The notes under the pieces are model-generated. The model did no database searches and was not told the origin of the DNA. It saw nothing but the letters and a program-made list of their open reading frames with translations. DNA of 64,000 nt from Apostichopus japonicus (Eukaryota; Echinodermata; Holothuroidea; Aspidochirotida; Stichopodidae): NCBI RefSeq assembly GCF_037975245.1, contig NC_092568.1, forward strand, positions 31,342,501 through 31,406,500, in the 5' to 3' direction. A program made the translations under genes and the position numbers. Positions 38,855 to 50,800 of the stretch are shown here, in pieces. How positions within the stretch are numbered: the stretch's first letter is position 1; every line of letters starts with the position of its first letter.

Positions 38855-41800
38855 CTGGAGGATCAAAGTCAGAGAATTTACTTTATAGTGCTCAGATCAT
38901 AGCAAATATTCCTAATTTACAATAAGGGCGCAAAAATAAGATATGACGAAATGTTTATTATATATATATACAACAAAAATATGTTTATAGGTAAAAATGG
39001 TTAGCGCAACACATTTCAAGAAACAGCAATGTAGCATCCTCGTTAACTAAGGGCTGGTAGCTCAGTTAGTAGAGCGCAGAACTTGTAATATTGAGATCAA
39101 TGAGATGAACCCAGCTCAAACCAACTTTCTATTACTTTTTTTTTGTAAATTTGTGAGTACTTCCATCAGGTTTTCCGTTGTTCGTGTACTAATATAAGAC
39201 AAAGCAACATGAAGCGCCGCATTACCATTGATTATTACTATTATCCAATTTTAATATTAAAAAGGGAATGTTTAAAAATGTATCAATGTTTCTTATTTGT
39301 TATTATTGTTGTTTCAAAATTCACACCGAGTGGTAGGGGCGGGGGGGGGGGGGGAGTGTCTAAATAGATTCTCATTGGTAGGTTGGAACACTGGCCACTG
39401 CAGTTTATGTCATTGTCATTATTTATTATACAGCCACAATTCAGACCTGACATTATTGACAACCTTACTGAACTGCCCGTGGCAACGATCTTCGGTGATC
39501 TGTTTTGTTAAAAAATAAAATTAATGCAAGACATCTGGTTTATAAGCACATCGTTGATTACGTCATCAAAAATACTTACCACACTCATCGGTACAATCCC
39601 TCTCTGTCTCAAAGTTGTTCGCGTTGCCTAGGCAACCACCGTAAGTAAATTCCTCACATTCGCCCGATTTAGAATTAAAACCATGTCTCTGAATCGCACC
39701 TCTACACGGCCCAAGCTCGATAGGAAGCTGACAAGTGGGAACTGTTGAAAAAAGCAACGAATAATATAATATATAATTACAGAGAACGTGACAACGACGG
39801 CGACGACGACGACGACGGCGGCAGCAACGACGACGACGATGATGATGATAGTCCCTTATGCGGTTACTTTTACCCTCTCATTCTCATAACACTGGGAACA
39901 GTTGAAAATGCAACAACGGTTGATATTATGGCTGAACCCAGACACCCTTCAAGGTTTTGGAAATAAAAATATTCAATATTTAAAAAGAAGCATCCTTCTG
40001 GAATACTATAAAATTAAAATGTTTGTCACGCTTTTATATTTAATAAGTGATATAGATCAGACCTAAGCTTTCCCGCTACCAAACCTACTTACTCTCACAA
40101 TCCACCTCCGTGTCACCGTTAAACCAATCCGCGAAACAACCGCCGCAGTAGTTGTCTACACAGGTAGCTTCTGGGTAAGCTGCACATGTTGCGATCTCGC
40201 AGGGACTGACGGAGCAGTACACGATGTTTCGACACCCTGATATGGAAGATAACATTATTTGTTTGTCTTTTGCAAAAATAAGAGATAACGAAATGTAATT
40301 AAAATATATATTACAAAATAAAGTTTACAGGAGAAAATGGCCCCGCGAAACTTATGTCAAAGAAACAGCAATGTACCATCCTCATCAAGTGAGGGCTGAT
40401 AGCTCAGTTGGTAGAGCAACGAACTTGTAATACTGAGATAAATGGGATGAACCCAGCTCAAACCAAACTTTCTATTGTTCTTTTCATATTTGTGAGTAAT
40501 TTCTGTCAGTTTTCCGTTGTTCGTGTACGTATATAAGACAAAGCAACATAAAGCGCAGCAACCAGTGATTATTACTATGAGCCATTTTAAAATGAATAGG
40601 AAATGTTTAATGATACATAAAACAAATTATTTGTTATTATTGTAGTTGCATAATTCTCCCCGACTGGGAGGCGGCGGAGGGGTATCCAAATAGATTGCCA
40701 ATGGTACGTTGTAACACCGACCTCTGCAGTTGATGCTATTGTCCACCTTACTCTTTCATCAAGTCACAATTCAGACCGGACTTTATTGACAATATTCAGT
40801 GAACTGCACGTGGCAACGATTTTCAGTGATCTGTTTTGTTGAAAAATATAAAATAATGCAAGACATATGTTTTATAAGCACATCATTGATGACATCATCA
40901 CAAATACTTACCACACTCATCGGTGCAATCCCTCTCTGTCTCAAAATTGTTCGCATTTCCTAGACAACCACCGTAAGTAAATTCCTCACATTTGCCCGTT
41001 TTAGGATTAAAACCCCATCTCTGAATTGCACCTCTGCACGGCCCAGGCTCCATAGGAAGCTGGCAAGTAGGAACTGTTCAAAAAGAGCAAAAGCAATGTA
41101 TAATGCTATATATAGATACAGTGAACGTGACAATGGCGCGCCGCCAACGACGACGATGATGATGATGATGATAGTTCCTTAAGCGGTTACTTTAACCCTC
41201 TCATTCTTGTGAAACTGGGAACATTTGAAACGCAACAACGGTTGATAGTTATTGCGAAACCCAAACTCCCTTCAAGATTGTCGAAATAGAAATATTCAAT
41301 ATATAAAAAGAAGCATTATTCTGGAATACCATCAAATTAAAATGTTTGTCACGCTATATATATAATTATTGATCATTCCTTATGGATCAGACTTAACCTT
41401 TTCTGCTTCCAAACCTACTTACTATCACAATCAACCTCCGTGACACCGTTAAACCAATCCGTGAAACAACCGCCGCAGTAGTTGTCTACACAGGTAGCTT
41501 CTGGGTAAGCTGTACATGTTGCGATCTCGCAGGGACTGACGGAGCAGTACACAATGTTTCGACACCCTGTTATGGAAGATAACATTATTGTTTTCTCTTT
41601 TGCAAAATATGAGATATCGAAATGTAATTAAAATATGTATATTACAAAACAAAATATTACAGGTGAAAATGACGCGCGAACCCATTTCAGGGAACAGGAA
41701 TGTGGCTTCCTCGTCAACTAAGGGCTGGTAGCTCAGTTAGTAGAGCAAAGAACTTGTAATATTAAGATCAATCAGATGAACCCAGCTCAAACAAAACTTT

Positions 41801-47800: not shown

Positions 47801-50800
47801 TCCTAGGCAACCACCGTAAGTAAATTCTTCACATTCGCCCGTTTTAGGATTAAAACCCCGTCTCTGAATCGCACCTCGGCACGGTCCAGGCTCGATAGGA
47901 AGCTGACAAGTGGGAACTGTTGAAAAAGATCAAAAATCAATGAATAATATAATATATAGTTACAGAGAATGTGATATCGGCGGCGATGGAGGCGGCGGAT
48001 CACGATGATGACGATGGTAATGATGATAATGATGATGATAGTACCTTAAGCGGTTACTTTTACCCTGTCATTCTCATGAAACTGGGAACATTAGAAAATA
48101 CGACAACGGTTGATATAATAGTTTAACCCAAAATCCCTTCAAGATTTTGGAAATAGAAATATTTAAAAAGAAGCATCCTTCTGGAATACTATAAAATTAA
48201 AATGTTTGTCACGCTATATACATAATTATTGATCGTTTCTAATATATCAGACCTAAGCTTTCCTGCTTCCAAACCTACTTACTATCACAATCCACCTCCG
48301 TGTCACCAATAAACCAATCCGTGAAGCAACCGCCGCAGTAATTGTCTACACAGGTAGCTTCTGGGTAAGCTGCACATGTTGCAATATCGCAGGGACTGAC
48401 GGAGCAGTACACGATGTTTCGACACCCTGTTATGGAAGATAACATTATTTGTTTGTCTTTTGCAAATTAAGAGATAACGAAATGTAATTATATATATATA
48501 TATATATATATATATATATATATATATATATATATATATATATATATATATATATATATATATATATATATATATATATTAAAACAACAAAAAACGTTTA
48601 CAGGTAAAAATGGCTGGCGGAACCCATTTCAAAGAAACAGCAATGTAGCATTCTCACCAACTAAGGGCTGATAGCTCAGTTAGTAGAACGCCGAACATGT
48701 AATGTTGAGATCAATCAGATGAACCCAGTTCAAACCAAACTTTCTATTGCTCTTTTTAAATTTATGAGTAATTTTCATCAGTTATTCGTTGTTTCTGTAC
48801 TAATATAAGACAAAGCAACATGAAACGCCTTGTGACCAGTGATTAATACTATGAGCCATTATAATATGAGAACGAAATGTTTAAAGATATATACAAAAAT
48901 TATTTGTTATCGTTGTTGTCGCAAAATTCGCGTCGACTGGGAATGGGGGTGGCGGCGGAGTCTCCAAATAGTCTGCCATAAATACGTTGAAACACCGGCC
49001 TCTGCCGTTTATGCTATTGTCCAGCTACTCTTTCATCGAGTTACAATTCAGACCTGACTTTATTGACAATCTTCAGTGAACTGCCCGTGGCAACGATCTT
49101 CAGAGATCTGTTTTGATGAAAATAAAATTAATGCAAGATAGTTGATTTATAAGCACATCGTTGATTACGTCATCACATATAATTACCACACTCATCGGTG
49201 CAATCCCGCCTTGTCTCAAAGTTGTTCGCGTTTCCTAGGCAACCACCGTACGTAAATTCCTCACATTCGCCCGATGTAGAATTGAAACCATGTCTCTGAG
49301 TCGCACCTCTGCACGGCCCAAGCTCGATAGGAAGCTTACAAGTGAGAACTGTTGAAAAAGAACAAAAAGCAATGAATACTATAATACATAGTTACAGAGA
49401 ACGTGACGACAACGACGATGATGATAATGATAATGATGATAGTGATAGTGATAGTCCCTTAAGCGGTTACTTTTACCCTCTCATTCTCATGAAACTGGGA
49501 ACATTTGAAAATGCAACAACGGTTGATAATTATAGCTTACCCAAACACCCTTCAAAATTTTGGAAATAGAAATATTCAATATTTACAAAGAAGCATCCTT
49601 CTGGAATGCCATAAAATTAAAATGTTTGTCACGCTATATATTTAATTATTGATCATTCCTTATTGATTTTGACCTCAGCTTTCCTGCTTCCAAACCTACT
49701 TACTATCACAATCCACCTCCGTGTCACCGTTAAACCAATCCGTGAAACAACCGCCGCAGTAGTTGTCTACACAGGTAGCTTCTGGGTAAGCTGCACATGT
49801 TGCGAACTCGCAGGGACTGACGGAGCAGTACACGATGTTTCGACACCCTGTTATGGAAGATAACATTATTTGTTTGTCCTTTGCAAAATAAAAGATAACG
49901 AATGTCATTAAAATATATATATTACAAATAAAAGTTTACATGTGAAAATGGCTAGCGAAACCCATTTCAAAGAAACAGCAATGTAACATCCTTACCAACT
50001 AAGGGCTGATGGCTCAGTTGGTAGAATGCAGAACCCAGCTCATACCAAACTTTCTATTGCTCTTTTTCTTATTTATTATTGTTGTTAAGGAAGGAAGGAT
50101 ATACAACCAAGAAAATGTACATTTCTCTCTACAAGGATAATATGTATGACAATTTTCATCGTCACTATGGGATTCATTATACTGCATTTAGAATCTTAAA
50201 GTAATGTCGGATAAGCTGGAAAGTAGCGTAAGAATGTTTCCATTGCTACGAATTCAAGGTGAACCGTAAATGTAGGAATATTCACCGAAAGCAGCTTTAT
50301 TAATAATGCAAGTCAGCCAGGCAAGCAGGCAGTTATTTTTTGCGACACTCAAGCGACTACGAATGTGGGAGAAGTCCGCAAGGGTCTATAGATTACAACT
50401 TTCACGTCGTATGGATTCCAATTAATCATTTTGACTCAAAGTTGGAAACTTTTCAATTTAGAAAGTCATATCAGATGGAACAACCGTAGATCGCTCTTGG
50501 ATGAAAAGCCCACCTGACTATGATCCAGGCGGCGGAACCCTGAACCTCCTGATTGCTGAGCCTCGTTGCTACAAATCCCAGCGCGTTATCCACTCGACCA
50601 CAGCACCGGTTGTTAATACATGCCACAAACCATGGAGACCATTGTACTTCATTGACTAACCACACAGACACAGGTGACTTGAGTTATACATAGCCTCGCA
50701 ATCACCCCCACCTTTGGAACAAAGCCTCACAATGACCGACTTCTAATGGTAGCTGGCAGACTGGAGTCTATACAGAGGGCGTAGTATCGGTACTCAACTC

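Follow-up and report, generated by a model that had tools for sequence, protein, structure and literature searches.

Several Kunitz domains are combined in one secreted protein, and encoded by phase 1-1 exons, in bikunin and the papilin-type proteins. The present study deals with an array of Kunitz exons from the sea cucumber Apostichopus japonicus, contained in a stretch of 64,000 nucleotides of contig NC_092568.1 (C8:31342501-31406500, referred to as the window) in a genome of 671.6 Mb distributed over 35 contigs, which are designated here by C-numbers. Unlike in bikunin and the papilin-type proteins, each Kunitz domain of this locus alternates with a module of eight cysteine residues (the 8-Cys or YCGGC module), eight times, and the copies are very similar to each other. 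On the basis of the exon anatomy, the open frame of the joined exons, the constraint acting on the protein and the distribution of the 8-Cys module, the array quite probably belongs to one gene for a secreted, multi-headed serine-protease inhibitor.

Two other described systems offer points of comparison. Among marine invertebrates, SmCI also contains several Kunitz domains per chain; this protein is described as a tri-Kunitz inhibitor of carboxypeptidase A and serine proteases, and no 8-Cys partner is mentioned in the titles and the figure legend that refer to it (in PMC10221039). The second system comprises NvCI and NpCI, the metallocarboxypeptidase inhibitors from Nerita. NvCI, a free protein of 53 residues with known structures (PDB codes 4a94 and 5mrv), is folded into a two-stranded sheet with three loops. 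According to the available part of its description (PMC5511257), the disulphides connect residues 9-23, 15-51 and 27-38, Trp42 is buried, and inhibition proceeds via Tyr52-Ala53, the main contact with the enzyme being the free C-terminal tail beyond the last Cys; in the same source, NvCI ranks first in strength among the natural protein inhibitors reported to date for M14A carboxypeptidases.

The array occupies the minus strand of the window from 49847 to 39580, exactly between the ends given in an earlier note on this DNA, and its sixteen exons bear out the alternating order, sizes, phases and intact splice sites described there. The first pair consists of 8-Cys module 1 (49704-49847) and Kunitz 1 (49187-49348), followed by module 2 (48283-48426) and Kunitz 2 (47755-47916), module 3 (46928-47068) and Kunitz 3 (46110-46271), module 4 (45428-45571) and Kunitz 4 (44933-45094), module 5 (44103-44246) and Kunitz 5 (43565-43726), module 6 (42745-42888) and Kunitz 6 (42231-42392), module 7 (41423-41566) and Kunitz 7 (40912-41073), and finally module 8 (40093-40236) and Kunitz 8 (39580-39741). 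The 8-Cys exons measure 144 bp, except for the third one of 141 bp, and all eight Kunitz exons 162 bp. Both an AG acceptor (15 CAG and, in front of Kunitz 6, one TAG) and a GT donor are intact in 16/16 exons, each of which begins and ends in phase 1. Every Kunitz exon exhibits six Cys residues at the Kunitz spacing and a reactive loop of the GPC-P1 type, in which P1 is Arg in 8/8 domains, again as previously noted, and P1' is Gly in seven and Ala in Kunitz 3. The PF00014 cut-off was passed by all eight in a genome-wide profile scan, and Kunitz 1 and Kunitz 2, scanned singly, reached 66.6 and 68.1 bits for a cut-off of 21. When the exons are joined, D/E-I and two more residues separate the last Cys of the 8-Cys module from the first Cys of the Kunitz domain, in all eight pairs. 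The array is real, and the architecture of the gene is ordinary in kind and unusual in its regularity; a modular inhibitor built from frame-safe 1-1 units, as the note had proposed, agrees well with these predicted exons.

The repeat units correspond to tandem duplications of about 1.3-1.5 kb which include the introns, so that the alternation of the two exon types is not due to chance. Between units, the mean distance amounts to 0.21 for both intron types (0.146-0.306 in pairwise comparisons), which is too large for an assembly duplication. Among the eight copies, the mean nonsynonymous (dN) and synonymous (dS) distances are 0.036 and 0.192 for the 8-Cys exon (dN/dS 0.19) and 0.086 and 0.315 for the Kunitz exon (dN/dS 0.27), ratios that are rough owing to the few synonymous sites available (29 and 34). 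Since synonymous sites have diverged about as much as the introns while the protein has been held, the constraint acts on the protein and does not reflect a recent copying or conversion of the exons alone. An assembly artefact or a decaying repeat could be suspected from the tandem similar units and the simple repeats in their introns; with units that differ at 0.146-0.306 per intron site, dN well below dS and none of the 16 exons damaged, the probability of this explanation is practically negligible. The array is neither an artefact nor dead, and looks kept by purifying selection. As a separate observation, a tRNA-like sequence occurs at 39051-39118 on the plus strand of the window (Rfam tRNA model, 31 bits for a threshold of 29), where ARAGORN calls no tRNA; similar antisense stretches recognized by eye in the array units, in the introns preceding 8-Cys exons, are perhaps remnants of an old short interspersed element duplicated along with the unit.

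Taken alone, the invariance of P1 among the eight domains is unremarkable, because 34/53 Kunitz positions, P1 Arg among them, are invariant, and an argument for dose drawn from P1 conservation alone was rejected on this ground. A much larger array on another contig (C4:23270799-23346331, plus strand) provides the relevant comparison, with 53 Kunitz matches in about 75 kb, 52 of which display the full Cys pattern. It resembles the present array by its tandem Kunitz exons, nearly all in phase 1-1 (phase 1 at 51/52 acceptors and 49/52 donors for the best-scoring splice sites), and by one 8-Cys module found among them; accordingly, exons in phase 1-1 are no peculiarity of the gene under study. Besides its size, the C4 array differs by loops that are mostly non-basic at P1 (n = 52: Thr 16, Ser 13, Gly 8, Pro 6, Asn 5, Ala 3, Arg 1), and it is because Arg occurs there in a single domain out of 52 that its presence in eight out of eight domains means more. 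As judged from the predicted protein, the locus most likely encodes a secreted, multi-headed trypsin-type inhibitor, with stable 8-Cys modules as spacers between its eight heads. Its targets could equally well be digestive, immune or matrix proteases, and the selection for dose or avidity proposed in the note is conceivable.

By the predicted model, the gene exceeds on both sides the span stated earlier. A scan upstream of the array (58000-49848) gave its best signal-peptide candidate at 54551, attributed to exon 1 (54491-54551, minus strand; signal peptide MDQKILLLVFLALSVVSHVE, phase 1 donor), of which a paralogue has a conserved counterpart at window 743-683. The putative exon 2 (53129-53293, minus strand, phase 1-1) encodes a Cys-rich CLDC...CCENCCGGQTC module, which the same paralogue also contains at window 240-76, and matches no Pfam family at E<=1. 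Behind the array, a VWC-like exon with six Cys residues (38753-38854, minus strand, phase 1-1) probably continues the gene as its next exon; its match to PF00093 is weak (E 0.018, 15.8 bits, under the cut-off of 27.6), and three similar copies are located at C8:31.314-31.322 Mb. Once joined, the 19 predicted exons form a frame of 924 residues with 128 Cys and no stop, in which every junction is in phase 1. Just behind the VWC-like exon, the minus strand of the window (approximately 37200-38350) also carries open-frame pieces, perhaps of a mobile element, with similar pieces around C8:31.311-31.317 Mb at as many as four places.

A further question is how many genes are present. Eight separate small tandem genes, each made of one 8-Cys and Kunitz pair and a short terminal exon (D-H-stop, AATAAA), would be conceivable, given that an AG acceptor in front of a ATCACTGA-like piece is kept in units 1, 4, 6, 7 and 8, and the AATAAA in units 1, 4, 5 and 7. 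In units 2 and 5, however, the acceptor of the terminal piece is broken, in unit 3 the piece is deleted and in units 4 and 8 its stop is changed, and no such piece follows a Kunitz exon in the paralogous clusters, for which reasons the separate-gene model was rejected as the principal explanation and must be regarded as very unlikely. It is also at odds with the scan for signal-peptide-like exons with a phase-1 donor, none of which was found in the introns following Kunitz 1 to 8 (the last one scanned to 38000). A single gene is favoured because of this absence, combined with the strong and conserved signal-peptide candidate lying upstream.

Two paralogous loci on the same contig illustrate how the number of pairs varies, from eight whole pairs in the window to fewer and partly damaged ones elsewhere. 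The second locus, situated downstream on the same strand, seems to start inside the window with the signal peptide (743-683) and the Cys-rich exon (240-76) mentioned above; further down come Kazal-like and VWC-like exons (by eye) and a Kunitz exon with Glu at P1, then an 8-Cys, a Kunitz and another 8-Cys exon, behind which no Kunitz exon was found, and more VWC-like exons. We infer that all of them belong to one gene. The third cluster (C8:31.294-31.298 Mb) comprises another signal peptide and two pairs; of their 8-Cys exons, the first can be read only by changing frame within it, and the second lacks the last Cys. The three Kunitz exons placed behind 8-Cys exons at these loci possess Arg, Lys and Arg at P1. 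That all eight pairs of the window are whole, and that parts are damaged or missing at both paralogous loci, counts in favour of a maintained single inhibitor gene. The locus offers a clear case of a constrained two-exon unit duplicated within a gene, to which the damaged paralogues in its neighbourhood provide a contrast. Another type of signal-peptide exon (MRLFIILLCL..) was noticed at two loci, as the first exon of the third cluster (C8:31297662) and on the minus strand of the window at approximately 10903-10837, the latter with no 8-Cys or Kunitz exon found behind it.

The protein proposed for the single inhibitor gene would comprise, in this order, a signal peptide, one Cys-rich module, eight pairs of 8-Cys module and Kunitz domain, and one or more VWC-like modules. 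The pairs would have arisen by intragenic tandem duplication of a segment of about 1.35 kb with one pair of phase 1-1 exons, and purifying selection would have preserved them since. The Kunitz domains would most likely each block a trypsin-like protease through their P1 Arg, such that one molecule may be able to bind several of these proteases. A number of facts weigh against this proposal. A single transcript is predicted here from genomic DNA alone, only phase, order and strand connect exons 1 and 2 with the array, and the position 52598 offers a second, weaker candidate for the signal peptide. The 3' end of the gene was not found behind 38753, where the sequence is repeated and possibly transposon-like, and the terminal-exon-like pieces (stop and AATAAA) behind several Kunitz exons could mean shorter transcripts. 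In addition, P1 is Glu in the unpaired Kunitz exon (C8:31323328) of the second locus, synonymous sites are few (29 and 34), and a low dN/dS is no proof of inhibition.

The 8-Cys module is not restricted to this locus. Two protein searches of the genome, completed by scans of selected stretches, identified at least 31 copies at ten places, counts that are lower bounds; two further weak matches were inspected and left out. The present locus accounts for 12 copies (eight in the window, two at each of the paralogous loci), and the 19 others are distributed over nine places: one copy on C1, four on C3 (three places), one on C4, one on C14, five on C17 and, elsewhere on C8, six at 7.0 Mb and one at 35.4 Mb. 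The module had been said always to precede a Kunitz domain, which holds for 8/8 copies in the window and fails genome-wide, where a PF00014 match within 10 kb behind and on the same strand accompanies 2/19 outside copies (C8:35.38 and C4) in a match list that is itself a lower bound. On C17, four modules occur within one open frame of 253 residues, and no Kunitz match is listed on that contig; on C3, Kazal exons are found near the module at two loci and EGF exons at one. The 8-Cys module is a disulphide-rich extracellular domain reused with other partners in this genome.

These associations would also suit a protein with a structural or matrix function, whose Kunitz domains would serve as scaffolds and inhibit nothing. 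VWC-like exons adjoin the array just as Kazal and EGF exons adjoin the module on C3, the C4 array is mostly non-basic at P1, and the unpaired Kunitz exon of the second locus carries Glu; set against the uniform P1 Arg of the eight domains, and the Arg, Lys and Arg of the paired Kunitz exons at the paralogous loci, a purely structural role appears unlikely, and a secreted inhibitor is retained as the better explanation.

The note had been unable to name the module, and the databases do no better for the copies tested. No Pfam family was matched at E<=1 by two of the eight window copies, and no NCBIfam family at E<=1 by one window copy and the C17 frame. Six proteins with module relatives gave weak Pfam matches only at E<=10 (E 0.15 to 4.1, below the cut-offs), one of them to an EGF model (E 2.6). 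An alignment of 18 members shows no variation at any of the eight Cys residues; once extended to 20 members, it retains seven invariant Cys, and the last one is nearly invariant. An AlphaFold2 model of the module reached a low mean predicted local distance difference test score (pLDDT) of 48.5. No publication describing the module was found in the literature searched by title and beginning of the abstract, a search covering few subscription papers. The alignment yields a profile for an extracellular domain that neither Pfam nor NCBIfam recognized in these copies; no part of this profile is sufficiently conserved for a search of public contig collections.

A possible kinship of the module with NvCI emerged from comparisons with the PDB (177,635 sequences, E<=10), and the module together with this tie is the interesting part of the analysis. 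The profile of the eight window copies (A1) found no PDB match. A 14-member profile (A2) retrieved NvCI as the second of two matches (E 9.3), an 18-member profile (A3) as the first of two (E 0.22), and a 20-member profile (A4) as the only one (E 0.2), which is not significant alone. A3 and A4 were deepened after NvCI had first appeared with A2; in both, the eight window copies are represented by one majority sequence identical to no single copy, and a module relative with a long insert was left out. Two other candidates did not show the pattern and were dropped. Comparisons of one profile with the NvCI sequence by hhalign gave probabilities of 76 and 84. Shuffled NvCI sequences reached the NvCI score against A3 in 1/20,000 cases with the Cys fixed and in 7/20,000 when shuffled freely, and column-shuffled profiles reached it in 111 of 300 cases for A1, one for A2 and none for A3 and A4. 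Conversely, two single family members gave only chance-level matches in the PDB, NvCI not among them, and residues 7-51 of NvCI as a query gave four weak matches in the genome (E 0.29-6.7), none of them a module and all resembling EGF exons by eye. The same residues matched no Pfam family at E<=10.

In the alignment, C3-C8 of the module correspond in the same order to Cys 9, 15, 23, 27, 38 and 51 of NvCI. Only two of the five spacings are equal (C4-C5 and C7-C8); C3-C4 and C5-C6 are off by one, and C6-C7 is 3 versus 11. Both proteins share a P-[DE]-A-T-C motif, an aromatic residue at C7+4 and V-x-C8 at the end; the module differs by an extra Cys pair (C1, C2) and a short C6-C7 loop (CGGC), and by being part of a large protein. 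By alignment, the disulphides would connect C3-C5, C4-C8 and C6-C7, with an additional C1-C2 bridge, and the aromatic residue at C7+4 would be equivalent to Trp42. In our judgement, the balance leans somewhat towards a common descent of the module and NvCI, and the fold is probably that of NvCI with one extra disulphide. The module is not filed as an NvCI-type inhibitor, because the free C-terminal tail of NvCI is missing from it. The link to a snail carboxypeptidase inhibitor is testable.

Should the kinship extend to function, each pair would act as a double inhibitor, an NvCI-like metallocarboxypeptidase inhibitor joined to a trypsin inhibitor, blocking a carboxypeptidase as well as a trypsin-like endopeptidase. 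The A4 match, the six corresponding Cys residues with their two equal spacings and the shared aromatic and V-x-C8 features all speak for it, and bifunctional inhibitors of carboxypeptidases and serine proteases do exist, as indicated by the title of the SmCI article in a reference list (PMC10221039). An NvCI-like tail would exist only after a cut, the first Kunitz Cys following four residues on; moreover, an E value of 0.2 is no significant match alone, the window copies by themselves give no NvCI signal, as the A1 shuffles demonstrate, single members miss NvCI, and NvCI as a query misses the modules. Double inhibition is unlikely. In a bolder and still less probable scenario, the NvCI-type inhibitors would have evolved from an extracellular 8-Cys module of wide occurrence, used here as a polymer against both endo- and exopeptidases, in which cleavage of the linker would free a C-terminal tail and thereby switch on the carboxypeptidase-blocking half. 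If true, this would amount to an eight-fold pairing of an NvCI-related module with an anti-trypsin Kunitz domain.

Some other features of the window and the genome deserve mention. An open frame of 393 residues on the minus strand of the window (13265-14446) resembles a seven-helix receptor by eye, and has a weak and unrelated Pfam match (E 0.12). Two further open frames on the same strand (18868-19677 and 4584-5285) look like reverse-transcriptase fragments, also by eye. Finally, the 16-kb contig C35 carries a COX1 gene. Of two mitochondrial codes compared on it, table 9 (AAA=Asn, ATA=Ile), used by echinoderms and flatworms, yields the expected residues at conserved positions and table 5 does not, in keeping with an echinoderm. 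Five further COX1 pieces occur on the 31-kb contig C29, possibly as part of a second or rearranged mitochondrial sequence.

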